Below, in pieces: positions 15,541 to 64,000 of a DNA stretch of 64,000 nucleotides (within the stretch, counting starts at the first letter, position 1; each line of letters starts with the position of its first letter). The notes under the pieces are model-generated. The model made no database searches, was not told where the DNA came from, and saw only the letters and a list, made by a program, of their open reading frames with translations. The translations under genes were made by a program, and so were the position numbers. The stretch spans positions 434,001 through 498,000 of the forward strand of contig JAADJZ010000012.1 of the NCBI GenBank assembly GCA_011032825.1, read 5' to 3'. Source of the stretch: Massariosphaeria phaeospora (taxonomy: Eukaryota > Ascomycota > Dothideomycetes > Pleosporales).

Positions 15541-15578
15541 GCGTTGCGTCGTGCTATTGAGCCGTTGCAAGATGACAA

Positions 15579-15623
15579 CCCTGCTGCCCGGCCGTCCGAG
15601 CCGCCCGGCCGTTCGAGCCACCC
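15579..15623 (+). repeat. 5' terminal inverted repeat of pogo copy A
   Basis: Eight end bases (CCCTGCTG) are followed by two tandem 17-bp units, CCCGGCCGTCCGAGCCG and CCCGGCCGTTCGAGCCA. A subterminal CACCAAAAC follows. Its inverse complement is exact at 17655-17699. Confidence 0.95.
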
Positions 15624-15668
15624 CACCAAAACAACAACCAGACTTCAACACGCGATAAATCTATCAAT

Positions 15669-43750: not shown

Positions 43751-44134
43751 TGTCAGATTAGAGGTAGAATCCGGAAGATGTTGGATGAGGCCGCTGAAAC
43801 ACGGCATGTGACCCCCCTGTCCCTAGATAGACTAGCGCGAAGAGCCTTCGCTCATCCGCAGCTCGAAGAGACGAGAAGGAGAGGAGACGGAAGGACGACG
43901 AACAGAGAAGACGAGAATACACACGATTATCACAAGATATTATCACGAACCCATGATATCTGACATATATATTAAGCCTGTTCTAGAGATTCTAAAAGTT
44001 TTAAACGTTCTAGAGTTCTAGAGTTACTTGAAACTCTTTAGAACTCGTAGTCTTCGAGTCTTGAATGCTTAGTAAGCTTAGTGTTCTCTAATAACCTAGC
44101 GTAGCCTCGCTTCGGCAGAACCTAGATCGTAACA
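43751..44134 (+). repeat. 3' LTR of the copia element
   Basis: It starts TGTCAGATTAG after the polypurine tract and ends GTAACA, giving TG...CA ends. It contains a TATA-like CATATATATTAAG at about 43964. It is a single copy in the window, so the ends are inferred. Confidence 0.75.
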
Positions 44135-44594
44135 GCACAATGCCTAAACTTGCTAAAAGAATACAGAAAAAGCTTTTAGTTCTAGAGCTAGCACAACGTA
44201 CGCAGGTTCCTTGTTTGATAGCAATTAATCTCATGTTCTTTGAGATGAGTTGGTTGTGCCAAGAAATTTTGTCGGGTTCGATGATCTGTCGGGTTCGATG
44301 ATCTAATACGTTAGTTACTATTTATTTCTAGTTAGAAACGCGTTGCTGTAGATTAAGTTTTTAAGACAAGATTAATTCGCGAGCTTACAATAAGTACCTT
44401 ATTTGTTTTCAGCGTAAGCTGAGTAGGTGCTTCGTTTCGTGGCGCGCATAATAAGAAGTTTGGAGGCTTTGAAAACGGGGCTGATTAACGATACTATTGC
44501 GCAGGCTGGAACGATACTTATTCCGCCGCAGCTCTCTCTGAGACGAAACCACCGTTCTATAAGAAATTATATTGACCCAACCCCTTCGTACAGA
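44135..44594. other. AT-rich intergenic sequence with a 17-bp direct repeat
   Basis: GTCGGGTTCGATGATCT occurs twice in tandem at 44271-44304. No gene seen. Confidence 0.6.
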
Positions 44595-45696
44595 TCAGAT
44601 GCCCAACCAAGACTGCTTCACGAATCCCATCGCCCCGATCGCATGCAACTCCCAGGTGCTTTTCGTGTGATCAAACGCGTGGTCCTCACCAGGCGCGATG
44701 TCCAGCCGGATGGTCGTGCGCGGCAACTTCTCCCTCGACAAGTCGACGAACTCTTGGATGGTGCGTAGATAGACGACACTATCGTCGTCTCCGGTTAGGA
44801 TCCATCTAAGAGAACCATCAGCGTCGCATTCCATGTCGCAGTAGCATTCGTGACTTACATCTTCGGTGGCAACTTTGCACCGGCTTTGATCCTCAGGAGC
44901 GGCAGGAATTCGGGGCGCTTCAGGCTCCTGTTATCGAAGAGGTGCGAGTAGTAGAGTCCGTACTGTGCTGCTGCGGCGGCAAATGCGCCTCTATCCATGT
45001 CCGCTTGGCTTGTGACTTCCTTTCTCGACTCATCAATCCATGCGACCACGGCCTCTTTGGATGGGAGAGTGTCGAGCGGAAAGCGGAGAATGGTAGGTTC
45101 ACCATCCTTGGGTCCGTTGACTATGACTTCATCTGCAGGGTTGACAAAGGGATACGCCATCGCCATCGCCGATATCTCTTCTGGGTGCGACAACCCGAGC
45201 TGCACGGCGCAATATCCCCCCGCCGAACTCCCGGCAAGCAGGAGACGAGTCAAGTCGAGCGAAAAACCTGGAGCGCGTCCTTCGAAGATAGCTGGAAGCT
45301 TGTTGCGTGTCCATTGCCAGAAATCCTCAATGTCCTCTAGTTGGTCTGCGACGCCGTTCGCAGTCGGGAGAAGGCGATAGTCGCCTGAGATTACCACGGC
45401 CGATTCCTCGAGAGCCAGCTTGAGCACCCAGGGAGAGAAGAAAGGTGCGAACAATGAGTGCCCGTTCACGAGAAAGCCGCCATGGAGGTTGACAATGACA
45501 GGACGTTTACCCGGTTGGACGTTCTTCGGAACCAGGATGGCTGCTCCGATATCGTGAGAGCCTACCGTCTTGAAACTTTGATGCGATGTTAGCGGAGCGC
45601 CGCGGACCTGTTTCTCAGATAGCTAGAGCTCGCGTACCTTTCTTTGAAGACAGTGAAGTTGTTGAACATGGACTCGTCGGGCCATTGGACAGCCAT
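44595..45696 (-). CDS. alpha/beta hydrolase-3 family esterase (328 aa, three exons)
   Basis: Exons are 45638-45696, 44859-45575 and 44595-44805, with introns of 62 nt (GTACGC...CATCAAAG) and 53 nt (GTAAGT...CTGAT...CTCTTAG). Exon lengths sum to 329 codons. HGG (residues 51-53) forms the oxyanion hole, GSSAG (135-139) carries the nucleophile Ser, and the last exon supplies acidic and His residues in APGEDHAFDH. No signal peptide. It is divergent from the epimerase gene at 46172 across a 475-bp promoter with four phased TTTCCG boxes, suggesting co-regulation. It could remove an ester or acyl group in the cluster's pathway; the substrate is not predictable. Confidence 0.88.
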
Positions 45697-45890
45697 GGTG
45701 GTCGTTATTCGAGCGAATGAATTGCTGGAGCTTGAGGATTGAAGTATTGGTGGTATGTCTGGTGAGTATATACCGCTTGCTCTGTTATTGTAAGGTTGGG
45801 ACGATGCGGTACTTATGTATCTCTAAGATCAAGCCTCGGGGTTCCTTGCCAGCTAGCGCCACTCCATCTTCTCCAATGTGGGAGCCCCAC

Positions 45891-45955
45891 TTTCCGTTGG
45901 AGACTGCGAGTTTCCGCTTACGACACCAGTTTCCGTGCCGTCTTCCCGCTTTCCG
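45891..45955. promoter_or_regulatory. four phased TTTCCG boxes in a divergent promoter
   Basis: TTTCCG occurs at 45891, 45911, 45930 and 45950, with spacings of 20, 19 and 20 bp, about two helical turns. The complement CGGAAA contains the CGG half-site favoured by Zn2Cys6 regulators, and such a regulator is encoded 1.4 kb away. The array is almost equidistant (about 200-280 bp) from the two divergent start codons. Binding is inferred only. Confidence 0.6.
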
Positions 45956-46171
45956 CTGACGATCACGGATCCTGAGTATTCCACTTCCCGTTCATCCGGC
46001 TTTTTCAACATCAAGCACATTCTGCGCCGCGGAATTGAGCTTCGTGCTGCGACACTAGCGAATACTTAAACCAGTCAGTCCCTGGTCTCGTCGCTTGCAA
46101 CGCACATTTGTTTGTGCAACAACTGCAGCGACTATCAGTACTCACAACTGACCGTCTTTCGCCATTCACAA

Positions 46172-47062
46172 ATGCATCTTTCTACGCAAACCTGGATGCG
46201 CCCCGAGCCCCTAGAGCAGACACTCAAGCGTGCCAGCAGGCTCGGATACTCTAGTATTGAACTTGCCGGAGAGCCAAGTCTATACCATGTTCAGGAGACT
46301 CGCCAGTTGCTCGACAAGTACGGCATGCATTGCTGGGGAACAGTTACGATGCAATACGGGAAGCGGGACTTGACGGCGGCCGACGAATCGCAACGACGAG
46401 ACACTATCCAGTACATGAAGGATGTAGTCTTGTTGTGTTCCGAACTTGGTGGGAGCATCGTCACGGTTGTTCCAGCCAGAGTGGGAAAGCTGGTCCCTAC
46501 TTCTGCGCCCGAGCTTGAGTGGAAATGGGCCGTGGAAGGCTTGCGCGAAGTCGCCTCCTTTGCCGAAGCAAGAAAAGTCAGGATAGGACTGGAACCGCTC
46601 AATCGATTTGAGACGTACTTTCTGAACCGGGTGGATCAGGCGCTGGCTTTGGCGGACGAAGTCGGTCACGGTTGCGGTATCGCGTTTGACCCTTTCCATC
46701 TTGCGTTGGAGGAGGAGGACATGTTTGCAGCGATGCGCGCTTGCGGGCCTCGCATCGTCGACTTCCACGTGGCGGATCACAATCGCCAAGCCGCAGGAGA
46801 TGGCAATTTCGACTGGCCTAAGATCATGTCCGCGCTGGCTGCCACTGGCTACGACGGCGGCCTTGCCGTCGAATTTATGCCCCCGATTGACCGCACGCCC
46901 GTGGGCAGGTTCGGCGCCGACCAACTCGAAACAGACGCCGTGGATGTGTCTCCAGACCAGCTTCAATTCATCCTCGACCACGGCTCCGGGCTTTTTTCGG
47001 ACACATACTACACCGGGCTGTTGCGTCGATCGGCCGAGACGATACAACCTTTTCTGAGCTGA
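46172..47062 (+). CDS. sugar isomerase/epimerase-like TIM barrel (ketose-3-epimerase type)
   Basis: This is a single-exon protein of about 296 aa. The start at 46172 (MHLSTQTWMRPEPLEQTLKR) was chosen over 46112 because TIM-barrel epimerases begin with such a strand. Metal ligands expected for the AP-endonuclease-2/ketose-3-epimerase fold are visible in order: Glu in IGLEPLNRFETYF, Asp in IAFDPFH, His in IVDFHVADHNR, and Glu in LAVEFMPP. The family interconverts keto-sugars or dehydrates inositols and similar polyols. Its neighbours are the divergent hydrolase and, downstream, the Zn2Cys6 regulator. Exact substrate unknown. Confidence 0.88.
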   Translation: MHLSTQTWMRPEPLEQTLKRASRLGYSSIELAGEPSLYHVQETRQLLDKYGMHCWGTVTMQYGKRDLTAADESQRRDTIQYMKDVVLLCSELGGSIVTVVPARVGKLVPTSAPELEWKWAVEGLREVASFAEARKVRIGLEPLNRFETYFLNRVDQALALADEVGHGCGIAFDPFHLALEEEDMFAAMRACGPRIVDFHVADHNRQAAGDGNFDWPKIMSALAATGYDGGLAVEFMPPIDRTPVGRFGADQLETDAVDVSPDQLQFILDHGSGLFSDTYYTGLLRRSAETIQPFLS

Positions 47063-47329
47063 ATGTTCGAAAGCTCATAGCGGGTGAATGGAATGGGCCA
47101 TGTAATTTTCACAGGCAAGAGTGGACGACAGCGACGGCCTCGGAGGAGCGCGGGGAAAGGAAGCAGAGCGCTTAGTCAGGATGTGGCCGACGCTAGCCTA
47201 GTCAGATTAGAGTTAGCCCACCAGCAAGTCCCGCTGACTAATAACAATCTCGTCCTGATGCTGCTTGGATCTGATTTCACGACGTGAACACCCACCGTGC
47301 CACCCACCCGCCGGCTGAACAACCTCGCC

Positions 47330-49619
47330 ATGTCATCAGCAGATCCTCCGTCGTTCCGGAAGCGCAAACAGCGTGTCGATGTAGCCTGCGACTTTTGTCG
47401 CCAGAGAAAGGTGGGCTGGTCCCGGGTGACACATTACTTAATTCCACGCCGCTGACAGTGAAAGGTAGCTTGGGTGCGACAACGCAAAACCGAAATGTGA
47501 AAACTGTCTCTCGTATCGTAAGGACTGTTCCTATTCCGGGACTTCTCGCAAGCAAAGGTAGTGTCAGGGTTTGTGACCGTGGGCGCAGCTGCTCACGGAT
47601 GGTAGCAGGTCTTCAGCGTCACGCATCGGAGCTCACGTCGAGATCAGTCCAGTTGAACAAGATGCAGAAGTTTCCGATACGCTCACTAGGACAATCGTCT
47701 CCACAAGACCGCAGTTGCTCCGATTCCATGGCCCGACGAGCAGCATGTTCGATGGAGGAAGTCTGCTCAGACGTGGAGACGTCAATGATTCGGCCGTACA
47801 GAAATCTCATCTGCTAGCCGAGACGGCAAGGCAACGTGCGCTCCCCCATCTCAGACCCGACAGTGCACTTATCAGTCTCTCGCAGGCCAACTGGAGCCCA
47901 TCAATCTGCGATTGCGCAAGCTCGACTTTGATGGCCTAAATCCCGATCAGACGGTGCTTCTGTTCTCCTTATTCTGGAACCGTCAACACGCCACTGGCTC
48001 AATCGTGTATCGACCATGCTTCATGAGAGATATGGCGAGCGACGGACCTTATTTTTCTCATCTTTTGCTCAACTCCATACTCTTCATTGCCTCCAAGTAC
48101 AGCACCGTAGCGTCCAGCCCCTGCGACGCGGCAGATCTGGACGCCGCCCCCGGCATGGGTTTCCGCCGAAGGGCCGAAAGCATACTTTTTGATCCCGTTA
48201 CCAAAGTGTTGACTAAGAGTAGTATCACGACGATCCAAGCTTTACTTCTCATGTCGGACGCGTTGTTCTCTTGGTGCGATGAGACGAGTCTGTCATGGCA
48301 TTACCTGGGCATCGCGATCAACATGATCATCGATCTAGGAATCCATGCCGAGAACTCTATCTCCAAAACTCCCGAGGACTTGGAGGTAGCGCGTAGGGTA
48401 TTCTGGGCAGCGTTCGGTAAGTCCATCTGTTACGAATTTGTATGGCGGTCTACTAAGCACCGATAAGTTCTCGATAAGCAGCAGTCGATATATCAGGGAC
48501 GAACTCCTCGTCTTCGAAACCAGGATTGCCGTGTGCCTGTGGAGTTTCTCGACGAATTCGAAGAACTTGAACCTTTCCATCCGCTGGGCTATTCTGGACC
48601 GGGTACACTAGACCTCCCGACATATAGCGTCTCAACATTTGAACAGCTTTGCACACTTAGCACCATTACAGATCGCATCCTTTCGAGCTTTTATGTGGAG
48701 AATAGTTCAGAAAGCGAACCAGAAGAACTACACCGGACTACTCAGACTTTACATGCCGATCTTATTCGATGGCAGGAGTCTCTTCCTGCGCATCTGTCAA
48801 TTAATTTCGATGATTCAGGCAACCCGAATACATCGAACGGCACCGTAGCGCTTCCTCATACACTATGCCTGATGCAAGCTAATACCGTTCCAATCCTCAT
48901 CATTCGGCTAATTCAGTGGCAGGCTGATGTTTCACACCCTACTCATTCTATTACATCGACCATTTGTGTTCGAAGGCCATCTGAAGTCCACCGCCGCACA
49001 TGCCCGGAACGAATTTACGATATGTGAATCCGCAGCAAGTGATATCGACGTTTTACTCCATTGGTACAGGAAACACTGGTGTATGAAGGCTCCTCCTTAC
49101 TTTGTGTCTTACGCGACTTACGTCAGCGCAACCATCCACGTGCGAGTCGCCGCACAGAATCCACACGGGGAGGCGCATCAACGCCTTCAAATCTGCCTAG
49201 AGATTTTATCTGAACACCAGAAGGTGTGTCATGCACCGCGTCGAGCCCTAGCTAATTTGCTTCTCGTGGTTCAACGACTCAATGTCAATGTTGGCAGTAT
49301 TCCCGTGTTGATGTCTCGCACTGCGAACTGTGACACACCCATAGTTGACGGACATAATAGTGAACCCGCAATGCTAGCTTCTAATGAAGTTAGGACGTTC
49401 CCAAACCAACAGGATCCTGTCGGTAACCTCATGTCGCCGACAAGAATCGCGGCGGAATACTCTCTTCAAGCTGAACCGGACGCCCCGGTCCTAGTACCTG
49501 ATCCACTTGGCGAATTCGATCTTGACGTAGGCGTACTTCCGGAGTGGATGTCTTTCTTTGACCTGGACCCTATTTTCGGCTTCGAAGACTTTCCTAATCA
49601 GTATGGCCCAGACCCATGA
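47330..49619 (+). CDS. Zn2Cys6 transcription factor (676 aa, six exons)
   Basis: Exons are 47330-47410, 47469-47557, 47609-47835, 47886-48416, 48468-48873 and 48923-49619. All phases match and the total is 677 codons. The zinc cluster spans the first intron (ACDFCRQRK then LGCDNAKPKCENC...KDC). The middle region (YRPCFMRDMASDGPYFSHLL..., ISTLGIHAEN-type helices) is a fungal-specific transcription factor domain, ending in the usual TLLILLHRPFVFEG. The last intron uses a GC donor (GCAAGC at 48874, acceptor GGCAG). The protein should act in the nucleus and is the likely pathway-specific activator of the surrounding enzymes. It is convergent with the four-domain fusion gene. Confidence 0.92.
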
Positions 49620-49922
49620 CGCACTCTACTTGGAATCGCTCATGCTTATACGCTACGAATTATCACTTCCAGGACCATAATTAGGACACGTCTGAATCCA
49701 CTTTAGAAATATGACCTAAGCTCAGAGAACGTCGTTACTGCAGCAAAAGCATACAAGCTACGGATTTGTCCAGAACCTTTACCTCCCCCTACCTCGACGA
49801 GCTGCGAACTCCGCTAAGCTTTCGACCTCTTGTACGAGCCCGAGGAATGTGACAAGCTCGATTCTCTACACTACAAAATACCTCTATACGAACATCGAAC
49901 TACAATCCCTATTCCTTCGTCC
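49620..49922. other. convergent intergenic region
   Basis: 303 bp between two convergent genes, with no ORF or repeat. It presumably holds both 3' ends. Confidence 0.6.
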
Positions 49923-52900
49923 TTAGACACCGTCGAATACCAATAGGCTCTGGATAGGGACCCTGCCGTATCCACGTTGGCGCAACAATTGCCGGCCACG
50001 GTGAGCAGGGAACTCGGCAATGACCATGATGCTAACATTTTCGGCGATGACACCAGCTTCATTGAGCAGCTGTAGTACCGCGCAGAGTGTCTCCCCTGTG
50101 GAAAGCACATCATCCACAACTACAACTGACGCGCCCCTGCGGACCACACCCTGCTCCATCTCCATCTTCTTCTCTTTCGCATTTTTGGATTCGACAGACG
50201 AGATGTACGACGACGTTTTGGTAACGGAAACCGTGGGAGGGGGCAGCTTGCCAGCTTCGCGAATCAACACCAACGGCACATCGACGCTGGAAGCCAGTGC
50301 CGGAGCATAGACTAATCCGCCGACCTCGCAGCACGCTATCGCGTCGACTTTGCCCCAGTCACCGATGAAGTGGGTTTCGAGCAGAGATGTGCACAGAGCT
50401 AACCCATCTGGCTGCTGGGCGATGCCGAGAACATGACGGAATTCAATGTTTGGGCGAGGAAAGTCGGGTACCGAGCGCACCATGTTGGCCAATCGTTGCA
50501 GATCTTCGTGGACGAGAGGAAACAAATGACGTTCAGCAAACCTTTCTGCCGCTCTATTTCCGGCTGTGTCATTATCAAAGATGAGACTGGGGCAGTAGTT
50601 CAAGGCCGCAATATTCGGCCTGTCCTTGTCGCTGTCCTTGCTGTTGTCAGCGCCGTTTTCAATGCCGCTCAAGCCCCGGCGGGTCCGTCGCTCCCGTTCA
50701 CTGGCTTGGACACGGACCTCGACTAGCCTACAGTCCGGCACCAAATGCGAAAAGGCTGCGACCGGCGCCTCGTCTCTCATCCCCGTGATGAGTAGCACTT
50801 CTACATCTGTTGCGTCATGTACCACCTCTAGAAAATGCTCCTCCGGTAGTCGAGGTCGCTGTCGTACCTGTTCCTGGAAAAATACTGTCAACGTGGGCCT
50901 GTGATGCTCCTTGTAAGCACGGTCGAAACGTAGGCGGCCAAGGTCGGCACCGCTTGCCGCCGCGTACTCCCGCTTGGTGGCATCGCTGATGCTGCTTACA
51001 CGCGCTGTGAGCGGTTTTCGGGCGCATCTGGGGAAGATGGAGACCCAGGCATCGGCACAATAGTCTTTGCCAGCACAGCTTTCGCCCGTGACAAGAATGA
51101 TAAGCTTCTGCTGTGTTGGCGTTTTTGGGAGCGGACAGGCGTAAGCTAGTACGCGGTGCGGGTCTGAGATTCCCTTGAAACGGGCTATTTCTGTCCCATT
51201 TTGTCCAAAAGCCTTGGCCGCCAGCACGACGTCCCTCGGGTCCGGTCCAAGGTCAGCCCCATATACTCCAGTACAATTTCTCAAGGACAACAAATCTCCA
51301 ACGACATTGTAAACCCATTGGACGGCAGATCGGGAAGCTTCAGTGCCATCTTGATGGCGGGGCCAAACACTAGTTATCACGCAAGCAAAGTCCCAGTCTC
51401 GACAACCAAAAGCAGTGGCATCCGGGCCAATGTCGCCAATCGCGCCTCCACCTTGCAGCAGATGGAGATAGCAGAGCGGAGAAGGACGAGTCGCGATGGC
51501 TGCTACTAAGCTGTCAACGACATTCACTTCTCCAATACGTTTCAAGAACAGACATCGCTTGAACGAGGACGTCTTGCCGCCGCCATGCCCGCCGTGCATG
51601 CGTGACACATACATCTCGGCCTCGAACAAACCGACACCGTCAACGGTCGCAGAACTTTCTTCCAGTGGCTTCGAATCGTCTTCAAGCCCCAGTATTGCAC
51701 CTACATCAATAGGCGAGGGCGTTGAGGCAGTTGTAGGCGTGATAGATTCGAACATGGTCACTCCGAGATGTAACTTTCCAACGTCCCAATACAGGTAAGC
51801 GTCTGCAGAATAGTTTCGGGGGAGTTTTCTTGCGACAAGATCATCAAAGTCTCTGAGCCTTTGCCGCGCCTCGAGGTTGTCACTTAGTGGCACGATCCAG
51901 TTACGAGTCGAGAACGTCGGAGCCCTGCAAGCCTTGAAAGTTACACTGATTACAATACCGAAATTGGTTCCAGCACCGCAGATCGCCCAGAAAAGCTCGG
52001 CTTCATTGCTCGGACGGACGCCACCAACTGGCCAATGTGAACTCGGTACACGGCCGAGACAGAGGATGTCGCCAGTAACAACGCTAACCACGACAGCACC
52101 GACAACTGCATCACACGCGAGCCCGTGCGATCTAGCTAGGTGTCCGATGCCGCCTTGGAGCCATAGCCCCGCACCCACGCTTGGACGAGCTCCGAGAGGC
52201 ACTGTTACGCCCATCGTCGTGGTCTTGCGGATGATATCACCCGTTTTGCAGCCAGCCTCGACAAAAACCAATGGGCCAGAGTCAGAGTTAGGACCCGAAT
52301 CTATGTCGTCATCTCTAGTCGCGATAATATCTATTTGGTCAAAGGCGCCCATATCGACTGCAACGACGTTAGGCCGGAGACAGTGACCGCTGTGACCTCC
52401 GCCGAGAATTGTCAGACCGACCTCCTGTTTGAGAGCCCATCGAACACACTTTTGGACGTGTGAAATCGCTGTCGGTCTCACGATACATGCTGGGCTGTGG
52501 ATGCGAGCTTCCCAGTTTTTGACCACCTTGCCCCCATTCGCCGATGGAACCTGCGTCAGCAAGTCCGGCAACGACGTCGCGTGTTTGTTGAAAGCCATCA
52601 TAATATCTGGTGCGCTGAACAAAATGCGGCCTGGGTGGGCTCCATCGTTACGGCCCAAGGCACGGCATACCTTTCGCCAATTGTCACGCGTAATCGCGTC
52701 CTGCGGGACAAACCCGGCAACGAAAGGAGCAAAGCAGTCCAGTGCTTCGTTATTGTCCAACACGCGAACCACTCCGGTAGGGAAAGAAGCAGTTCGATGG
52801 CATACCAAGCTACCTAGGTTGAGTGCGCCATCGCGATGGAAAACCACTACGATCCCGCCTTGTGATTCCTCGACAAGCATACCTAGCGCTTTTTCGATGT

Positions 52901-53402
52901 ACTTCTGTTTAGAATTCATGCCATACATGCTGTGGCAGAACAGGATGATGTCGTACTTCTTGTCATGTTCTCTTACGTCCTGCAGCACGAACGGATTTTG
53001 AAAGATATCGGGCGCGTTCTTCACACTGGGCAGCGGGGACTCCGTGTCAAGGGAGGCAGAGTATAGCCATTCTTCCAACTTTGCCGCAAACAAACCGTTC
53101 GGCTCGAACGCAGTGTATTTCCCGATCTTCCTTCGCAGACGGGTGGGGAGGTATCCGAGTACGCTCTTCGGGCCGGGTCCGATCTCAAGCACCGAAATAT
53201 GAGAGCGCGAAGTGCAGAGTGTGGCTAGCAGCTCGGATAGCTGGGGGATTATGAAGTCCTTGTACGTCGTCCATCCGGGGCCTTGCATCAGGATGTCGAA
53301 GCCGGCGCTGTATTGTGTGACGGACAGCGACTGCTTTGAAGAGGGATTTGTCGCTTCGGCTTTTTGCCTGAGGGCCTGCTTTAGGGAGTTGAGGGTAGCC
53401 AT
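49923..53402 (-). CDS. four-domain fusion: methyltransferase-like / BBE FAD oxidase / phosphomevalonate-kinase-like / adenine phosphoribosyltransferase
   Basis: One uninterrupted ORF encodes 1159 residues. Residues 1-270: SAM-methyltransferase fold (VLEIGPGPKS at 71-80; YDIILFCHSMYG at 150). Residues 295-755: FAD-binding type-4 oxidase with GGGHSGH (334-340), whose His can carry the flavin, while the second Cys linkage site is Ala-Arg-Pro-Ser (LGARPSVGAG); it ends in a DPHRV BBE-like tail. Residues 765-965: P-loop GESCAGKD (773-780) followed by ISDATKREYAAASGADLGRL and an EVRVQASERERRTRRG arm, as in animal-type phosphomevalonate kinases. Residues 968-1159: APRT-like, with VRSVPDFPRPNIEFRH, an EVGGLVYAPALA block and the PRPP loop VVVVDDVLSTGET (1093-1105). 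There is no signal peptide and no intron. The combination suggests modification of an adenine- or nucleotide-derived metabolite. Domain identities 2 and 4 are strong, 3 good, 1 moderate. Confidence 0.9.
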   Translation of the reverse strand: MATLNSLKQALRQKAEATNPSSKQSLSVTQYSAGFDILMQGPGWTTYKDFIIPQLSELLATLCTSRSHISVLEIGPGPKSVLGYLPTRLRRKIGKYTAFEPNGLFAAKLEEWLYSASLDTESPLPSVKNAPDIFQNPFVLQDVREHDKKYDIILFCHSMYGMNSKQKYIEKALGMLVEESQGGIVVVFHRDGALNLGSLVCHRTASFPTGVVRVLDNNEALDCFAPFVAGFVPQDAITRDNWRKVCRALGRNDGAHPGRILFSAPDIMMAFNKHATSLPDLLTQVPSANGGKVVKNWEARIHSPACIVRPTAISHVQKCVRWALKQEVGLTILGGGHSGHCLRPNVVAVDMGAFDQIDIIATRDDDIDSGPNSDSGPLVFVEAGCKTGDIIRKTTTMGVTVPLGARPSVGAGLWLQGGIGHLARSHGLACDAVVGAVVVSVVTGDILCLGRVPSSHWPVGGVRPSNEAELFWAICGAGTNFGIVISVTFKACRAPTFSTRNWIVPLSDNLEARQRLRDFDDLVARKLPRNYSADAYLYWDVGKLHLGVTMFESITPTTASTPSPIDVGAILGLEDDSKPLEESSATVDGVGLFEAEMYVSRMHGGHGGGKTSSFKRCLFLKRIGEVNVVDSLVAAIATRPSPLCYLHLLQGGGAIGDIGPDATAFGCRDWDFACVITSVWPRHQDGTEASRSAVQWVYNVVGDLLSLRNCTGVYGADLGPDPRDVVLAAKAFGQNGTEIARFKGISDPHRVLAYACPLPKTPTQQKLIILVTGESCAGKDYCADAWVSIFPRCARKPLTARVSSISDATKREYAAASGADLGRLRFDRAYKEHHRPTLTVFFQEQVRQRPRLPEEHFLEVVHDATDVEVLLITGMRDEAPVAAFSHLVPDCRLVEVRVQASERERRTRRGLSGIENGADNSKDSDKDRPNIAALNYCPSLIFDNDTAGNRAAERFAERHLFPLVHEDLQRLANMVRSVPDFPRPNIEFRHVLGIAQQPDGLALCTSLLETHFIGDWGKVDAIACCEVGGLVYAPALASSVDVPLVLIREAGKLPPPTVSVTKTSSYISSVESKNAKEKKMEMEQGVVRRGASVVVVDDVLSTGETLCAVLQLLNEAGVIAENVSIMVIAEFPAHRGRQLLRQRGYGRVPIQSLLVFDGV

Positions 53403-53693
53403 TTGTGTTTAGCATAGGCGGATGGGTGTAGCGATGGGTCGATATGGGGCCTTATGAACGCAGAAGGCGTTTGCTGTGCAGGGGCGCTATACCCGATTAG
53501 GGTGCGCCGTGAAAGGAACCGGAGTTTGTCGCTTGTAAAGTGTGCGAGTTTGTATTTGCTAACAAGACCTTGTGCGGAAGAGTCTAGTTTTCCATGTACT
53601 GTAGTTTTCTCTCATGCATTCTACTTACCTAAGTACCTAGGCACTTACCCCAGGGGCCACATCGGACCGGGGCTCCGCGGTGCACGTGTACAG

Positions 53694-56074
53694 ATGATCT
53701 CGGGAGGCCTTCGCTCAGCTAGTGTGCGGGGTATCAGAGCACGCCCGGGCAAGGCGCTAGATGCCTCGGGCCCAAAGTTCCTCCGGGGCAGATGGACGAA
53801 GAAGACCAAGGAACAGCGAAAGAAGAACCTCTTGGAAGCATGGCCGGCCATGTCTCCCATCCATCGACCAGATTTTCACGCGTTCCACCGGGATTCGGCA
53901 AGGCAGGGACGGAATTCGACCGGCTTCAGGGAGGCGTACCTCTGGCCATATATCAATCAACAAAACCTCTCCAGCGGTAGAACCTTACTCCTTTTACTTA
54001 ACGCTCAGGGCAGAAATCCACCTATCGCCTTTCTTTATGCGGACCTCGAAAGCGCGCTGGTTGGGCATAGGACTGGTGCGCTTACTCCAGCTGGTCCGAG
54101 AGCTTTCGGGGAAGCACCCCAGCCACTTATGGACAACTGGCGCCTTCACCTGACTACGTCGATGTTGTCTCAGGGAGAAGCCTGCTTGCCGGAGATGGTC
54201 TGGAGGCTTTGGAGATCCAGGAGAAGCTTCTGGATTTTCTGGTATCTGTGACAAAGATTATCATGAAAGACAAGGGCCCCGATTTTGCGGACGAATCCTT
54301 CCCCGTTTTACCTCCTCTAATGGCACTCAGGATGGACGACTCAGAATGGCAGTCTGTACCTGCTTTGGCTGCTCAGGCACCTTACATGTCTCCACAAGCG
54401 GTAGATCTTTTGAAGTTGAAAGATCTAGTCAGCGCAAGATTGTCGGCTGCCAAAGATCACATATTATCGTTGAGAGAAGATCCCAGTTATTTCGCCGCAT
54501 GCGTCAAGGACTGGTTTGAACACACACCATATTGCGTGCCGGATAACCACGGGAAAGTACACCATCATGTTGCAAGTGCGGTGAGCCGCAGTAAGTTTAC
54601 GAATTGTTTGCTGCCTCGATTCATTTACTTTGCTTACCAAGACACGTATTGGTGGGAAACTCTACTATTACAACTGGATAGTGTGATTGCGCTGGATCGC
54701 ATGTACATTGAAAAACAACTGGAGACGGAAGAGGAATTGCCAGGCTATGTCGAGGCCCTTCAAATGCTCAAACATATACTCATCGGGCCTATGGAAAGGT
54801 GTTTCTTTAGTCATATCAAAGAGCAATTTCCGTCTTCTCCACCGATGCGACATCTGTTCGAAAGACAAGTCGGACCCAACGGCGTAGTTGCATTGAGATA
54901 TCGTCATGCAGTCAATCGCAGTATGTGGGACATAAAGGATTATCTGCTCTGGTTGTTTATGGTGCTGTACCAACCAGGATCAGCAGGCCGACAAGAGTCA
55001 CAAAAGTTACAGGACATAGGCAATCTCGCTGTTGAGCTAGAGAGACGCATGCAGATGAATCCGAAAGAAAAGGAGCGTGTGACTACCTTATTAGCTGGTA
55101 CCGTGTCAGATATAGGCCTCAAGGAAGAGCTCGTCCATCAACTTCAGCGCTACAGGCCACTTATATTTCTGGACGAACACGGAGACAGGCGCATGGCCGC
55201 ACGTGAGCGTGAGTTGGCCAACGGCCCCTGGGCTGACAATCTAGACAGCTCTTTGCGCGCCATTTCTGGCGCCCTAATGCCCGACGAAATTCCACTGGGC
55301 CGCAGAGGTTACCTCGCGGTGCAGAACTTCAAATATCCAAACACCAAGCGCCGAACCAAGGAGAACGTCGCGCTTATGCAATCAGCTGAGCGGAACTTGG
55401 ACGCATTGTGGCTCAAAGTGGACCAGCATCTTCAAGAAAAGCTGGACTCGACCGCATACCAGGTCTGGGCGCGACTGTCGCCAAAGCAAGATGAGATACG
55501 CAGGACGGAAGATTGGTGCGAACCCGAGCCCCTGCGATTACGAGCGGATCTTCAGATACCCTCCGTCCTTCAAGACTTCAAGGAATTGGACTTGGAACGG
55601 CAACGACGGACCGAAGAGACCATCGCAGCAAACAATGCGGCAAACACAACGCCAGCTCCAAAGACAAAGTCGCGCGGCCTGCCCGGCCCAGAAATTCCGC
55701 AGCGCGCCGCCATCGATGCTCCCGAAGTGGCCCCTCAACCAACCGCACCTCCGCCGCCGAGGTTCACATTGAAGAAGCGCGCGCTCAAGGTCTTCGCCAC
55801 CATCTTCCACAATCTCGAGCAGGCCGACCAGCCCGGCGAGATTGCGTGGCTCGACTTCCTCTACGCGATGGCGCAGACGGGCTTTGCTCCCGAGAAGCTG
55901 TATGGGTCTGTGTGGCAGTTCACGCCGGACGCGGTGAAGTTCGGTGTTGAGCGTAGCATCCAGTTCCACGAGCCGCATCCCCACGGCAAGATTCCGTACT
56001 TCAATGCCAAGCGGATTGGGCGCCGACTGAACCGAGCGTATGGGTGGCATGGTGCTATGTTCGTGGCTGAGTGA
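53694..56074 (+). CDS. ipa-like fungal protein, interrupted by a frameshift
   Basis: The C-terminal 621 codons (54209-56074) are one open frame ending RSIQFHEPHPHGKIPYFNAK...RRLNRAYGWHGAMFV, the conserved tail of a large ascomycete family often labelled ipa protein. The N-terminal part lies in another frame: LLEAWPAMSPIHRPDFHAFH, REAYLWPYINQQNLSSGRTL and NAQGRNPPIAFLYADLESAL (about 53835-54070). The frames switch between 54073 and 54100, where one frame gives ...GALTPA and the other resumes SWSESFRGSTPATYGQLAPS. No intron fits, so this is a single-base frameshift, either an inactivating mutation or a sequence error. The start ATG at 53694 is tentative. Function of the family is unknown; the tail resembles a HicA-type RNA-binding fold. 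Confidence 0.7.
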
Positions 56075-57091
56075 GGGGGTGGGTGTTTCTTTCTTGTGGT
56101 TCGTCGTCGTGGTGGGTGTTGGTGTCGGTTCTGTGATTGTTTTCTTGTCTTAGCTTCCAGAAATGGAATATGTTGCGCTACATGGCGAGCGACGTCGCGA
56201 GTATATACAGCGATCTAATGTCTCTTAGTGCTTTTGCAGGAGGTTCCTAGGGCCGCATTTACATAGTTCGCTCGTTCTCTCTATTCGTATATTCTCTCTC
56301 TCACGCTCTATCCAATTACATGTCCCTCCATTTCCCCTAATTCCCTTGTCTTCCACGCATCTCCTGTTCGCATCTTAGTCGGGGCCCAAGCACGCTTGCA
56401 GCCCCTCCGGCACCTCCGATCTCGGGCAGCATGAGCAGCGAGTGCCAACTCTCTCCACGCTCTTTCGCCGTTCGCGACGCGGTGCGAGAGCTGCCTAACG
56501 AGCAGTCTCGAGCTCCTGGACTCCCATAGCGACAGTGTCGCCTTCTATCTACCAGAGCCCATGCAAGCCGTATCTCGCAGCGACTCGGCCCTGCCACAGA
56601 GCACCGCCCTCAACATCATGACCTTCACCTCACCTCACCTTCACTCCGGCTCCTATGCCCTCCGCGGCCTTCCACCTCCTTCCACCCACGTCTCGCTTCG
56701 CCAGGCAACCCTGCTAGCGTCGTTTTCTGCTCGCTACCAAAATCTTCCACCGCGCTCCCTCCTTGGAACAAACTGCTAGCAAAACACATACAAACTGTTC
56801 CACTCCGGGAGCCCAGCTTGCGTGCCAGCCCTCTCACCGCCCTCGCCGCGGACCCAGCGCCCAAACTTCGCGCACGTGGCGGCGTTGCTGACTCTGCTAG
56901 CGTGCCCTCCTCCCCTCAGGTACTTAAGGCGCCCGCCCGCCCTGCTCCTGCTTTTCCTTTTCTCCTCACTACCTCGCTGCGAATCCCACAAGGAGAGCCA
57001 TTGCCTCCGGGGCCGTGGCAAGTCGCAGCAGTGGTAACCATCACACATGTCCTCCTCTTCAAGCGTCGCCATTCCTGTTTCCTCGTCGCGC

Positions 57092-57302
57092 TCTGCGTGC
57101 CTGGCTATCCGCCTTCATTTACCTCTGAGGGTTTCCATCCCCTTCCGCGCGAGGTCGCAGTCCTCGTCGGTGGTTCCTGGAGGTGTGATGGCCATCCGCC
57201 CCTTTGCGTCTGGCTATCCTGTTCGCGCCTTTGAGGGTTCTATCCCCTCCCGCACGAGGTGTTTATCCCTCGTCGGCGGGCTCGATCGTGCGATGGCTAT
57301 CC
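57092..57302 (+). repeat. diverged tandem duplication, about 106 bp
   Basis: Ordered blocks recur at an offset of about 106 bp: TGCGTGCCTGGCTATCC / TGCGTCTGGCTATCC, CCTCTGAGGGTTTCC / CCTTTGAGGGTTCT, CGCGCGAGGT / CGCACGAGGT, CCTCGTCGG, and GTGTGATGGCCATCC / GTGCGATGGCTATCC. Confidence 0.7.
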
Positions 57303-57433
57303 AAGGGTTGCGCGACTTGGAGATCCCGCGGTGCCCAACGTGGGTCGTCTAGGACGATGGGTGGCGGACTCGTCTGCTCTCTGCTCGTAGCTTCGTGTAC
57401 GGCATTGCCGCTGTCATGCACGTTTGAGCCACT

Positions 57434-57491
57434 GTAAGTCGCCTCCCCTCCCTCCCTCCTCTTCCTCTTCTGCCATACTAACTTCTGCCAG
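57434..57491 (+). other. orphan intron signature
   Basis: The donor is GTAAGT, followed by a long pyrimidine tract, a perfect ATACTAAC branch site and a TGCCAG acceptor, 58 nt in total. The flanking ORFs (57204-57437 joined to a short tail) would encode only about 90 unconvincing residues, so the host transcript may be a spliced leader or non-coding RNA. Confidence 0.65.
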
Positions 57492-57777
57492 ACCCCTCCT
57501 TTCCCACGCTCACCTCATGGGTAGAGTGGGTTAGGGGGTTAGAGCAGCAGAGCCACGAGTTTTGACGCGCGTCGAATCGTGCGGTCCTTTGTCGGATTGA
57601 CATCGGCGCCTCTTTACGTATTGGACGCCTGCCACGATTCGGGGTTGGACTGTGATGAAGATTAAAAGGATCGGTTAGGCGCCCAGGTCGGGGTAGGGAC
57701 TGACTGACTGGTGTTTTGCATCCTTTCAGACCCAATTACCTGACCGGCTTGGGAAGACGTGCCACTTGATCCGACAT

Positions 57778-58040
57778 ACTTTTGAGGGCTCTGGAGGATT
57801 TACTTTTGAGGGCTCCGGGGGATTTTTCTTTCGTTCGCATTCCACTTGTTGGCATTGGCATGTACTTTTCTTTTGTCCGCGTTTTTCCTGTTGGCATCTT
57901 CCATGTACTTCTTTCTCTTTCATTCCTTTGTCTCCTGTTGGCAATTTTCATGTACTCCTATCTCTCTTTTTGCTTTCCTTGTTGGCATGGACATGTACTT
58001 TTCAATCGTTCGTATTCTTCTTCTTGTTGGCACACCATTC
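57778..58040 (+). repeat. 24-bp duplication followed by degenerate 43-47-bp repeats
   Basis: ACTTTTGAGGGCTC(T/C)GG repeats in tandem from 57778. Then CTTGTTGGCA...CATGTAC cores occur at 57845, 57888, 57935, 57978 and (partial) 58023. Confidence 0.75.
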
Positions 58041-58581
58041 CCATACATCCTTCCCCCTATCAGAAATTAAAAATGTCCCCTTTAAGATCTTGACTGTTGC
58101 TGTGATGTGATGATGTGCAACGTGATCGCTGTGTGCTCTCCAACCCCATGCTTCGAAAGCGCTATGCACTTGAGTGAATTACCTACCGTCTATCCTATCT
58201 CGCTCTCTCCGGCTTTGGATCGTGCCTTTTCGTGAAGTGCCACGGTGTGGAATGACCCTCCAATGCAGCTCGAGCTCTTTGACTAGCATTCCCGAATCAG
58301 ACTCACGAGGTACAAGCCGATTAAGTAGCTGCATTGAGTAGACCGAATGAGCGATTCATACGAGCTGAGCTGGCTATGGACCAGGAGCGTAGTCAAGCCA
58401 GCTAGTTATGCCAAAACCGCAGGCCCCTCGACATATTCGTTTGCATTGGGTTCACTTCAAACTCTACATTCCAGCGTATTTCCAAGAACTGCTATAACTG
58501 AAATTTCCCCCCTACCTTCGCGCAATTGCACAGCACGCAAGAACCCGATCCAAACCGCCAACAACACTCACACCGCCATCG

Positions 58582-59993
58582 CTACGACAGCGGAAACCAC
58601 TCATTAAACCGCCCCTCCGGATCATGCTCCCGCTTAATCGTCCTCAACCTCTCCAGACTATCCCCATACACCGTCTCCAACGTCTCATCACCATGCGCAT
58701 TGTTAATATACCTGCTCTCCGTCAGTTTTCCCGCGCCCAACCAGTCCAGCATCAGTGATAACAGGCAACTTACGTGCTGCGTCTTGCCAACCCATCCGTA
58801 GCCTGCCACATCGCCCTCACCTTCTCGCCGTAGCGCTGCGCCGTCGCGTCGAACGCCGCATCGCGGTACGCAACTGTCAGTCCAGCGTGGAACCGCACTG
58901 TGCTGCGGAACGGGTATGCGCTGCTTGCGTCTGGCAGCGCGCGCGCCTTGGCTGTGGGCTGGATGTTGCAGAGCATGCTGCTGCGCTCGGCGCCGGGCTG
59001 GGCGATGAGTTCGGCCCAGATATCGTAGACGTTGCGCCACGCCGCGGCGTCCAGGTGCGCGAGGCCGGCCGCCCACACTGGCCGCCGGCCGCCTTTCATG
59101 CACGCGATGTTCGAGCCGTTGTTCCAGGACTCGTAGGGCAGCTCGGCGAGCTGTTCTGCCAGGGGCCCGATATCGAAGAGCGGTGCGAACGCCGCGCGGC
59201 CAGCGGCGGCGGAGCCGTGGTAGAACAGCGTGGTGAGGACGACGGGCCGCCCCGCGTTGATGAAGTGCAGCGATAGCGACATTTCGGGGGAGAGTTCGAG
59301 GTTCTGGATCGCATCCACGACGGCCTCGAGCTTGGCCGGGTCGAACGTCAAGGGCCCCGTCCAGGCGGTAAGGTCGCTCTTCTCTGCAACTGGATGCGCG
59401 CGGAGCACGGCAGACGTCACGATGCCGAAGTTGGGGCCTGCGCCGCGCATGGCCCACCAGAGATCGGGATCGGCCGGCGTGACGGTGACGGCGCGTCCGT
59501 CGGCTTTCACGACGGCGAGGGAAAGCAGGTCGTCGATGGCGAGGCCGTACTGGCCCATCAGGTTGCTGAAGCCGCCGCCGAGAAGGGCGCCCAGCGCGCC
59601 GACGCAGTTGCAGATGCCCGTCAGCGTGAGGGATTGCTTCGCTGCGGCTGCGGCCACGACGTCGGATATCAGCGCGCCGCCGCCGATTGTCGCTTCGGTG
59701 CCGGCGGGGTTGAAGGTGACGGATCGGAGGAGGTCGAGGTGGATGATGATGCCGTCGTGCTGGAGCTTGAACGTCGTGGCCCAGCCGTTGCCGCCGCTTT
59801 GAGCTAGGAAGGGGATGTGTCGTTCGTTCGCCCATTTCACTATGGCCTGGACATCCTCTGGGGTAGCGGGGTGGACGACGCTGCCTGGCTGCGGCGCCGC
59901 GTACTCGCTCCAGCGGAGAGGCTGCGCTGGCGAGCTGTCGATGGTCGAGCCGGGGGAGAGGAGAGGAAGTAAAGAGGATGTGTCGCAGGCCAT
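58582..59993 (-). CDS. BBE-like FAD-linked oxidase (449 aa, two exons), His-less
   Basis: Exons 58774-59993 and 58582-58711 are joined across a 62-nt intron (GTAAGT...GAGCAG) and total 450 codons. The FAD-binding type-4 domain spans about residues 38-210 (HPATPEDVQAIVKWANERH; LLGGGFSNLMGQYGLAIDDL), and the BBE domain is at the end (YINNAHGDETLETVYGD, EHDPEGRF). The position that normally carries the 8-alpha-linked histidine is Asn (SGGNGW, residue 69), but the G-x-C-x2-VG-x2-G cysteine site is present (Cys128). Flavin attachment is thus expected to be cysteinyl only, or absent. There is no signal peptide, unlike most family members, so it is likely intracellular. It probably oxidises an alcohol or C-C/C-N bond in a small molecule. 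Confidence 0.9.
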
Positions 59994-60588
59994 GGTGAAG
60001 CTTAATAACTAGAGCAACGAGAATAACCAAACCATGTGGGATTATGAAGAGCGTATCATCTATAGAGAGAAGTACTCGATAGAAGCAAAACCGTGCATCC
60101 ATGGTCTACATATGATATATTGTACTCGCGCGAGCCACGAATAGGTAGCCTAAAGTTGGTCAACCCCCAGAGCGAATAGCAACCCAATGTCTTGCTTACG
60201 GAGTCATCTCACTGTTGGATTATGAATGCGGACTTCCGCCCCACGGTGCGAGTGCATGTGTTGGGCACTTTAGCTTGAGAGCGGTGTGCGATTGAAACCC
60301 CTCTGCAGCTAGTACATAATCCGCTCCGCCCTGTGCGGGGTTGTCGGAGATAACGCCTTTGATCAGCCGAAGTTTGCTAGCGCCCGAGCGTGCCGGCCCA
60401 CGTGACAACGATTTCACTTTCACTCGTGTCCCACAGTGTCCTGCTAGTACGCTACGGGCAAGCGCTGTCGCTACACTCACGTGATCGATCTCTTGCCGCC
60501 CGTGAAGCATTTTTCAAACGACAAGTAGCTTATGAACTGCTCAGCCTTCCCATCTTCCCGCAACATCCACCCTCTAACAAACCACCCT
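59994..60588. other. intergenic region
   Basis: It separates the 5' end of the FAD oxidase from the 3' end of the beta-helix gene (same strand). No gene supported. Confidence 0.5.
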
Positions 60589-61653
60589 CTAACAAACACT
60601 CTTCTTCGCATTCCCCGAAATCACCCAATTCGTGTTATCCCCACACGGCGACTCCCTAACCGAATTATTATTCACCGCCAACGCAATCGACACATCGCGA
60701 TTATTCGGAAACTCCGACCTAGCAGCCAGCCGCACCTCGCCGCCGCCCTCGACAGTGCCGCCCTTGATGGCCACATTATAGCAATTTTCGATGAGAACCG
60801 CATTGTTGCCGTTGCCCCTAAGGTCGACGGACTTGATGTCGACGCCGCCGGACTGCGACACGCAGAAGATGCCGCGGCCGCCGCCGCGCGACACCACCTT
60901 GTCGACGAAGACGTTGGTGTCGTATTTCCCGTTTGGCGTTTGCCCGTTGTTGTTGGCCATGCGGAAGGTGGCGTAGCCGGTGTTTGCGGCCACGTTGTCG
61001 CCGTCGACGAGGGCGACGCGCGCGTTGGTGGTTTTCTGCAGGAGCAGGCCGCACTCGCCGACGTTGCGCGCGAGGACTTGGTTGATGGTGAGCTTGTCGA
61101 TGTTCCAGGTTTCGACGGCGTGGCTGCCGGCGCCCGTGATGTGGATGACGTCCATTTTCACGTTCGAGTTCGCGGCTTGGTCGCGGTCGAAGCGGATGCC
61201 CAGGCCGCCGCTGAGGTTCATGGTGATTTTGCCGAGGGTGAGGTCGCGCGTGCCGTAGAAGCGGAGGCCGAAGTAGGGGTTACCGGTCATGGTGAGGTAC
61301 GGGATTTGGACGCCCTGCGTGTTCAAAGACTCGATCGCACCGCGGCCGGACTTGTTGCCGACATTGATAGTGCCACAGCCTTCGAAGGTTTTGCCGCTGC
61401 TGATGGTGATGGTATTGGCACCGATGGAGCCGGATGCAGTGACTGACACGCGCTGGCCGCTACTGATGGAATCGAGCGCGGCCTGGATTGCAGCGCGGTA
61501 ATCAGAACCAGTGTAGACGTTACTGGAGCCCTTCTTCGCTACAAACGAGCTGCCCGAGCCAGTTACCGTAGCATGTGGTGTACCCGAGCCGCATTGGGCG
61601 TGCACGTAGGCGATGATGGCGAGCACCGTTGTTAGGATCGAAAGCTGCAACAT
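60589..61653 (-). CDS. secreted right-handed beta-helix protein (pectin-lyase-like fold, 354 aa)
   Basis: Single exon. Residues 1-19 (MLQLSILTTVLAIIAYVHA) form a signal peptide cleaved before Gln20. The mature protein has regularly spaced Asn/Gly-rich strands (ITISSGKTFEGCGTINVGN, YGTRDLTLGKITMNLSGGLG, VLIENCYNVAIKGGTVEGGG) typical of a parallel beta-helix, the fold of pectate lyases, polygalacturonases and related polysaccharide-acting enzymes. It ends with Cys (SGNAKKSVC), with paired cysteines suggesting disulfides. Specific catalytic residues cannot be assigned by eye. It is likely an apoplastic carbohydrate-active protein, and probably unrelated to the neighbouring metabolic genes. Confidence 0.8.
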   Translation of the reverse strand: MLQLSILTTVLAIIAYVHAQCGSGTPHATVTGSGSSFVAKKGSSNVYTGSDYRAAIQAALDSISSGQRVSVTASGSIGANTITISSGKTFEGCGTINVGNKSGRGAIESLNTQGVQIPYLTMTGNPYFGLRFYGTRDLTLGKITMNLSGGLGIRFDRDQAANSNVKMDVIHITGAGSHAVETWNIDKLTINQVLARNVGECGLLLQKTTNARVALVDGDNVAANTGYATFRMANNNGQTPNGKYDTNVFVDKVVSRGGGRGIFCVSQSGGVDIKSVDLRGNGNNAVLIENCYNVAIKGGTVEGGGEVRLAARSEFPNNRDVSIALAVNNNSVRESPCGDNTNWVISGNAKKSVC

Positions 61654-62342
61654 AGTTGTGTTTACAAGGCCGTTCTTACCCTAGATGGAGGTCCAAGAAC
61701 TTCTTATACTGTTCCCGAAGACAGGGCCATTAAGAATACCAATGTTCGAAAGTGCCATGATCTGGTATAGTCCATGCCTGTGCTCGAGAGATTCTTGTTG
61801 GTGGAAGATGTAATATCAGCGATCATTAGCCGTGCAATGTTGAGTGAAACATCTCAAGCGTTCTTCACGGCGTCGATATTTGTACAGTTGCACCAAAAAG
61901 ATACTGTCGTTAGTAAAACACTATGGTGCGTATTCTTTTAGCACCAAAAGTTGGACCTTTGAAGCATTTCGTCGTGATGTATAGTTTGTTATCCTAACTC
62001 TTAGTCTCTAGAGAGGGCGCCCAAGACGCATCGTGAATGGCGGCTGAAACCTCTTTGGTGACTCGGTTTAATCCCCCGGAGATGGAATAAAACGAAACCA
62101 CGAATGAGGGCTCGGTAAAAAGAAAGACTTTTTACCTCCTTGCAACCCCGCATCCACTCGTACGCCAAGCTTTGCCGTTAATCTGCTGCCGGCATAATAG
62201 TCATGTCTTGGTCATTACATCGCGATATATTGTGCGACCTCGTGTCTATGTTGTTCGTAAGTTCCAACCCTCGTGCGTATGCCGGGTATCTGTCGTGATA
62301 TCGTTTTCTTCCATCTTCCGTATGTACAAAACAACTCCATAC
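61654..62342. other. intergenic region
   Basis: It contains the promoter of the beta-helix gene and the 3' region of the P450. No other gene seen. Confidence 0.5.
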
Positions 62343-64000
62343 TTACAAAGCCCTCGGCTTGATGTTGAGGTACACAGGTTCCTTTTCTACCACAATAAAG
62401 GTCCTTAGATTCTCCCAAATCAAGCGCTTGTCCGGTACGACATCCATGTCGAATTGGAACATCATCTTAGCCAGCACGATCTTCAGTTCAGTCAAAGCCA
62501 ACAGCTTGCCGGGGCAATTGCGCTGACCCAAGCCAAATGGGAATTGGCTGTCGAGTGCATCGTTGAGGAACTCTGATGGGCGAACTTGGGCGGGCAGCCA
62601 GCGCTCGGGTATGAAATCGCTAGCACGGTAGAAGTATTTGGGACTGTGGGCTATCGCCATGGGACTGACGATCACGCTTGTCTGTGATGGGTTATTCACG
62701 ATGTCTTGCAATTGGGAGAGAGAAGACTTACCCGTCCGGGCAGCCAGTGTCCGCAAACCGTGGCACCGGCCTCTGGGACACACCGTGGTAGTCCGGCCGG
62801 GACTGGATTGCACAGTCTAAGGCCTTCCTGAATAACGGCTGTCAAATACGGGAGGTCCCTGGTGGAGGTCACATTGATCTCGTCTGCACTGGCGAAGCTG
62901 CTACGGATCTCATCTACCAGTTTCTGCTTCTTGTCGGGAGTCTGGGCAAGGTAGTTGGCAGTGCCAACGAGCGCGGTGGCTGTGGTCTCGCTGCCGGCGA
63001 TGATGAGGATCTGATAGGTCGACTCCACCTCGTCGCGGCTTATGTTTTCAAAGTCTGGGTTAGTCTTCGGGTCTAGCACGGGAGTCATGAAGTCATTCCG
63101 AGTCTTTTCGAAGTTCATGCGACGCGAAATCTTCTTAGCCGCGATCTGGTAGTGGTCGTCTTGCATCTTGCGCAAGCTTGGTGGAATCAGTGCCATGAGA
63201 GTCTTCTCGAGAAGAGGATAGAAGCGCGTGGCTGCGAGCATCACCATGCCTAATCTCGTCAGTGATGCCAAGACAATAAGGTCCGGGAGTTACTCACCCT
63301 TCAAGTAGGCATACAGCATCTTTACCCAGGGGTGGTAGGAGCTGCTTTGCATGCACCCAAAACTCTCCCCAAATGTTAAATCCCCAATCAAGTCAAATGC
63401 GAAGAAGTTGAACCAATCGTTTACATTGATAGCGGCACCATTTCCATTGGTCCCCGGCGCGGTAGCCATCTCCTGGAACTTGTCCATCAGGTACGTGGCA
63501 TAGCCGAGAATGACAGGTTCCTGAGCGCGAAGGGCACGCTCGGTGAAGGCGGGCAGTACAACCTTACGCATGCGTTGGTTCTCGTGGATGTTGATAGTCG
63601 TGACCATGTTCGTCGGCTGGCCCGGGGGACTCTTGAAGAAGATTGGATTCTTGTAAAAGGCGGGAGCTCCGCCTGGACCCGGCAAGAAGATCTGATCCCA
63701 GGCCTCCTTGCGGGCAAACGAGACCTCGTCCGGTGCGGTGCGCACTATGTCGCCATACTGTTCGTGGAGCTTGCGGACATCGCGCACGAGCTGGCCCCGG
63801 ACCAGGGACCAGATAAAGCCTATGCGGGTAGAGCGCCAGAAGACGGGACCCGGGATCTTGGCCAGCGGGTGAAAGTACAGGTTGTAGACGATGGAGTAGG
63901 CTTCATACTGGGGAGTGCCGGTTAGGATGTGTGCGAGGTACAGTAGTGTCGAGCTCCAGCGCTTGGGGGATGAATACGTACGGCCACGACCACGGCTACC
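62343..64000 (-). CDS. cytochrome P450, CYP65-like, 5'-truncated by the window edge
   Basis: Exons visible are (from the 5' side) 63982-64000 (partial), 63298-63907, 62732-63249 and 62343-62681. Introns are 74, 48 and 50 nt with GTACGT/GTGAGT/GTAAGT donors. The protein reads YNLYFHPLAKIPGP (hinge), HENQRMRKVVLPAF (helix C), AGSETTATAL (oxygen-binding helix I), EGLRLCNP (ExxR), PERW, and the heme loop FPFGLGQRNCPG, with cysteine as the heme ligand. The pattern matches the family that includes isotrichodermin C-15 hydroxylase-like enzymes of secondary metabolism. The N-terminal membrane anchor lies outside the window. It would be an ER monooxygenase. The substrate is unknown. Confidence 0.93.

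Follow-up and report, generated by a model that had tools for sequence, protein, structure and literature searches.

A 64,000-nucleotide stretch of the Massariosphaeria phaeospora genome (Dothideomycetes, Pleosporales; GCA_011032825.1, JAADJZ010000012.1:434,001-498,000), called the window below and the reference for all positions, carries on its minus strand at 49923..53402 a single-exon gene for a protein of 1159 amino acids (P0001). Four domains follow one another on this chain: a methyltransferase, a flavin oxidase, a kinase resembling phosphomevalonate kinase (PMK) and a domain with the fold of adenine phosphoribosyltransferase (APRT). The explanation favoured here, held tentatively and at somewhat less than even weight, is a multifunctional enzyme performing successive steps on one nitrogen-containing, phosphoribosyl-linked metabolite.

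The frame runs unbroken through 1159 codons from an ATG at 53402 to a stop at 49923. The start codon has the context AAACACAAATGGCT, and a stop two codons upstream of it limits the open stretch to 1161 codons; the first frame of the plus strand of the interval holds many stops. Three Pfam families were matched over their cut-offs, FAD_binding_4 at residues 304-447 (6e-12), P-mevalo_kinase at 771-888 (4e-20) and Pribosyltran at 994-1130 (2e-19); a Methyltransf_23 match at 54-174 (only 8e-4) stayed below its cut-off. A homologue search with 7993 scored candidates yielded 1106 matches at E<=0.001, and the row counts given here refer to the best 120 of these 1106, the query included. All 120 carry PF04275, PF00156 and PF01565, and each of the 119 others shares 66-72% identity with the query over 96-100% of its length. 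Because these relatives have the same three Pfam domains at near-full length, the fusion is, as judged from sequence, real, and a chance frame or a misassembly is excluded. The sole point in favour of such an artefact is that the frame spans four unrelated folds; with an identical Pfam layout in 119 of 119 other listed matches, its probability is negligible. Misassembly had been named beforehand by the original prediction as one of the outcomes that could overturn it. The single-exon four-domain frame proposed there is supported by the open reading frame (ORF), the Pfam matches and the full-length homologues, as are the four domain assignments by Pfam (three domains) and a fold model (methyltransferase); the strand had not been given. 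The motifs it quoted are all present, VLEIGPGP at residues 71-78, GGGHSGH within GGGHSGHC at 334-341, GESCAGKD at 773-780 and VVVVDDVLSTGET at 1093-1105. Within positions 44000-64000 of the window no repeats of at least 30 bases were found around the gene, and the 698 bases upstream of it matched only themselves in a search of the genome.

How widespread the fusion is had been left open; with all three Pfam domains in each of the best matches, it proves to be common in Pezizomycotina. The listed relatives span at least five classes, with many lichen-forming fungi and moulds. The named rows among them belong to Lecanoromycetes, Leotiomycetes, Dothideomycetes, Sordariomycetes, Eurotiomycetes and Geoglossomycetes; the class was looked up for five species, Sarcosagium being incertae sedis, and for the remaining named relatives is the one we presume. 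Full-length ORFs occur on metagenome contigs, which suggests that many species have the gene without introns, since such ORFs are presumably unspliced as a rule. Two short peptide patterns, a probe of limited sensitivity, found no orthologue in one genome per species of 84,980 prokaryotic species, only an ordinary spirochaete APRT, and no match on viral contigs. Where databases name these proteins, the names are automatic (adenine phosphoribosyltransferase, phosphoribosyl transferase domain protein, FAD-binding PCMH-type) and are doubtful or uninformative. A literature survey, judged by titles and abstract openings and covering few subscription papers, found no description of the fusion. All domain families are known; the combination is new to the literature found, though present in databases, mostly unnamed or automatically named.

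The N-terminal domain (residues 1-290, 52533..53402) was predicted with confidence to fold as a class I S-adenosylmethionine (SAM) methyltransferase of the histamine N-methyltransferase (HNMT) type. The original prediction had called for a structure prediction of this part, and the HNMT-type fold agrees with the presence of the class I motif: in SAM motif I, VLEIGPGP (53169..53192), L72, E73, G75 and G77 are found in 120 of 120 rows. HNMT is its nearest match, the likeness lying in fold and SAM motif at only about 15% identity. A PDB search with this domain by sequence only returned noise, mostly carbonic anhydrases. The second domain (residues 291-765, 51108..52532) is a flavin adenine dinucleotide (FAD) oxidase of the VAO/BBE type (PF01565, 45.8 against a cut-off of 26.4), with sequence matches to 6-hydroxy-D-nicotine oxidase (E 2.6e-15) and EncM (2.5e-11). 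It shares with these and BBE-like VAO flavoproteins the FAD domain and the histidine attachment motif, here GGGHSGHC (52380..52403), in which H337, presumably the histidine that binds FAD, is kept in 119 of 120 rows. At what we take to be the second, cysteine attachment position of the bicovalent members stands R406 in all 120 rows, so that flavin attachment would be mono-covalent at most; the C-terminal substrate part differs from these flavoproteins in having no sequence match.

The kinase domain (residues 766-965, 50508..51107), assigned by PF04275 and by alignment with human PMK (3ch4), belongs to the PMK-like, nucleoside monophosphate (NMP)-kinase type. PF04275 scored 72.2 against a cut-off of 33.8; the equivalog model TIGR01223 reached 29.9, under its cut-off of 188.15, and the single-sequence match to 3ch4 was weak (E 0.12). 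In the P-loop GESCAGKD (51063..51086), G773, G778, K779 and D780 are invariant in 120 rows, as are K810, Y813, K831, E832, R835 and R876. Aligned through this weak match, the conserved residues correspond to the P-loop, K48, Y51, K69, E70, R73 and R110 of human PMK, in numbers that we assume. A kinase stripped of catalytic residues throughout the family, which the original prediction had counted against itself, was not found, the examined residues being present in 120 of 120 rows. Its view of the domain as an animal-type PMK-like kinase is borne out by the PF04275 score; the genome has an ERG8-type match at another site. Common to the animal enzyme (PMVK, PF04275) and the present protein are the GKD of the P-loop, the lysine and tyrosine of LKEQYA, YKE--R and the first arginine of TRR, which is R876. 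The second arginine is replaced: the position of human R111 is D877 (Asp in 116, Glu in 4 of 120 rows), so that the pair R110/R111, to which we ascribe substrate binding, is incomplete, with R876 kept. The score under the TIGR01223 cut-off and the separate ERG8-type match further set the protein apart from animal PMVK.

The last domain (residues 966-1159, 49926..50507) was recognised by its fold match as phosphoribosyltransferase-like, with human APRT as its best PDB match and adenine phosphopsicosyltransferase 7f06 also among the matches. It shares with human APRT the fold, the clamp phenylalanine, a GKLP motif and the motif VVVVDDVLSTGET (50088..50126) for binding phosphoribosyl pyrophosphate (PRPP); D1098, G1103, T1105, F988 and R1048 occur in 120 rows, D1097 and K1052 in 119. 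The APRT pyrophosphate loop is replaced by CCEVGG (residues 1024-1029, 50316..50333), where G1028 takes the place of human Arg67 in all 120 rows. Human Lys88 is replaced by Glu or Asp, the E104-Y105 pair is lost, the loop is nine residues longer and the domain is fused to three others. Since Arg67 has become glycine and Lys88 acidic in every row, orthodox adenine salvage by this domain is doubtful. The adenine phosphoribosyltransferase named in the original prediction has thus kept its fold and PRPP motif, whereas its activity is doubtful, given the replaced residues and an ordinary APRT-like gene elsewhere in the genome; a domain devoid of catalytic residues throughout the family, its other anticipated objection, was found in part, with Arg67 and Lys88 replaced and the PRPP motif kept.

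A true APRT, a second adenine salvage enzyme with accessory domains, is what the database name adenine phosphoribosyltransferase implies. Human APRT as best PDB match and the equivalents of Phe26 (F988, 120 of 120) and Lys91 (K1052, 119 of 120) fit this; we nevertheless consider it quite improbable. Among the NCBIfam APRT models listed there was none whose cut-off the protein reached (99.3 against 125, the nearest; 92.4 against 170; 88.7 against 185.85). While Arg67 and Lys88 are replaced in all 120 rows, the three ordinary APRTs compared (human, L004 of the same genome and the spirochaete L015) all keep R67, K88 and E104-Y105, residues whose catalytic roles we take as given; a literature search on these residues listed only a docking study. 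Moreover, L004 on contig C34 is an ordinary APRT-like frame (170.2 against 125 for PRK02304.1-5; 173.7 against 185.85 for TIGR01090); its sequence forms a single open stretch, probably with an intron inside. PF04275 occurs in the genome only at the fusion gene, and the ERG8-type match lies on contig C7, split into 258.1 and 55.6 bits, under the cut-off of 376.95, with two in-frame stops taken as introns. Since ordinary APRT-like and ERG8-like genes lie elsewhere in the genome, both adenine salvage and mevalonate synthesis can probably proceed without the fusion; a role in the mevalonate pathway and one as sole APRT were rejected on these grounds. Cytokinin metabolism, including a cytokinin oxidase, was rejected as well: PF09265, which we take to be the cytokinin-binding domain, was not among the Pfam matches at E<=1, and the cytokinin-type substrate considered in the original prediction is not supported.

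The remodelled site makes plain adenine salvage less likely and points to a sensor or to a substrate other than adenine. The activity of all four domains, the order of the steps, the substrate class and the reaction enter the multifunctional enzyme as suppositions. That four activities act one after another on a single substrate, as the original prediction had proposed, is a reasonable conjecture. Such an enzyme would consist of two modules, an N-terminal one of HNMT-type N-methyltransferase and histidyl-flavin oxidase and a C-terminal one of PMK-like kinase and APRT-fold domain. The substrate would be one small nitrogen-containing metabolite, purine- or imidazole-like; the APRT-fold domain would bind PRPP or a ribose-5-phosphate compound and join or recognise the phosphoribosyl group, the kinase would add a phosphate to a phosphate group, and the base or amine would be tailored through methylation and oxidation by the flavin domain. 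The match to 7f06, an APRT-fold enzyme recruited to another use, favours this reading. In Cns3 of Cordyceps militaris the phosphoribosyltransferase is presumably of the HisG type and stands without a methyltransferase or flavin domain. Cns3 belongs to the cordycepin/pentostatin cluster, is described as uniting a nucleotide kinase with a C-terminal phosphoribosyltransferase around a purine metabolite and is a fungal precedent for this union in purine metabolism (PMC11300563).

A sensor would use the same remodelled site differently. The APRT-like domain, alone or together with the kinase, would bind PRPP or adenine nucleotides as in Bacillus PurR and control the methyltransferase-oxidase half; we regard this as possible but unlikely. 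Several observations weigh against the multifunctional enzyme. The last domain may be non-catalytic, because Arg67 and Lys88 are replaced in all rows and the E104-Y105 pair is mostly lost. Glycine at the Arg67 position also holds in 64 of 64 rows of a set that includes ten shorter, divergent proteins. At the Lys88 position stands E1049 (Glu in 119, Asp in 1 of 120); in the 64-row set Glu occurs in 58, Lys in 5 and Arg in 1, the change not being universal in divergent members. Human E104/Y105 align with E1071/S1072 of the query; over the 120 rows the first position has Ala 84 times and Glu 4 times, and the second has Ser 93 times. R876 of the kinase is kept in 62 of 64 rows of the same set. The full-length model is poor (pLDDT 58, pTM 0.33), so that it gives no ground for postulating a shared active-site channel. 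In fold searches with it, most EncM matches to the flavin part had a large root-mean-square deviation, and the rows shown included no kinase fold; they were used for the phosphoribosyltransferase part only. Finally, proteins with half of the architecture are annotated in some species.

These half-length proteins bear on the further idea that the two halves run unrelated reactions, merely co-expressed on one polypeptide. C-terminal halves are annotated in Elaphomyces (P0121, P0127) and Endocarpon (P0129), shortened versions occur for example in Fusarium oxysporum (P0340, P0360), and 16 of 103 shorter rows start exactly at the methionine just before the kinase. Both halves are, however, present in all of the best 120 matches, and a break upstream would in any case make ORFs and gene models begin at this common methionine, so that the half-length forms may reflect artefacts or decay. 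The half-length proteins may be split gene models, gene-model errors or decayed copies, and unrelated halves are an improbable explanation. Constraint is nearly equal along the chain: the frequency of the commonest residue is 0.88-0.90 per domain over 120 rows, and pairwise identity among the other rows is 0.82-0.84 per domain. Of the 261 columns shared unchanged by at least 118 of the 119 others, the divergent query departs at only 11, and these include no motif residue that was examined. The conservation of the cofactor motifs, together with the equal constraint across the domains, argues that the whole chain works.

The gene history was followed in an uneven sample, the tree and identity rows being the matches nearest the query. 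Among 30 named relatives, query excluded and Sarcosagium counted as Lecanoromycetes, mean identity came to 83.7% for the 101 within-class pairs and 81.3% for the 334 between-class pairs; for the 29 without Sarcosagium the values were 83.5% (90 pairs) and 81.2% (316). Congeners were 78.9% (Hyaloscypha), 86.0% (Xylographa) and 88.5% (Monosporascus) identical; Trichoglossum and Lepraria, of different classes, reached 90.9%. The 31-row tree is star-like, with short inner branches, 11 of 28 left open, and the query has the longest end branch (0.41). Class labels cluster on it beyond chance, with 11 changes against a shuffled mean of 16.2. Leotiomycetes need 6 changes, 4 of them forced by starred branches. 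Approximately unbiased (AU) tests, on groups chosen after the tree had been seen, rejected a single Leotiomycetes clade (p 5e-12) and the Hyaloscypha pair (p 0.016) and did not reject the Xylographa pair (p 0.26). Single-copy vertical descent fits poorly, and hidden paralogy and horizontal transfer would look the same in these data. The relatives involved in the conflict between tree and class taxonomy are P0003, P0037, P0090 and P0073.

Around the fusion gene the window holds several other frames. A xylose-isomerase-like TIM barrel frame (46070-47059) and a Fungal_trans frame for a fungal-specific transcription factor (47789-48463), both on the plus strand, lie near its 3' end, and a 667-codon open stretch on the opposite strand upstream (54071-56071, plus) had no Pfam match at E<=0.01. 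About 5 kb away a second FAD_binding_4/BBE gene (58585-60105, minus) appears as two Pfam pieces in different frames, owing to an intron or a frameshift. A cytochrome P450 frame matches part of its Pfam model (62699-63289, minus). The left part of the window contains an integrase core (rve) frame (2100-2864, plus) and a Tc5/DDE_1 transposase frame (15576-16646, plus).

A mean identity of about 81% between Pezizomycotina classes (29 classified named relatives) means that the protein must matter. Its product might, speculatively, be an undescribed nucleotide-like metabolite of many filamentous ascomycetes, a methylated, flavin-oxidised nitrogen heterocycle ribosylated by the remodelled APRT-type site and brought to the diphosphate by the PMK-type kinase on the same chain. 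If true, a hidden purine-type pathway would be packed into one intronless gene. Assignment of its function would correct the database annotation and might bring to light a nucleotide metabolite common in fungi.
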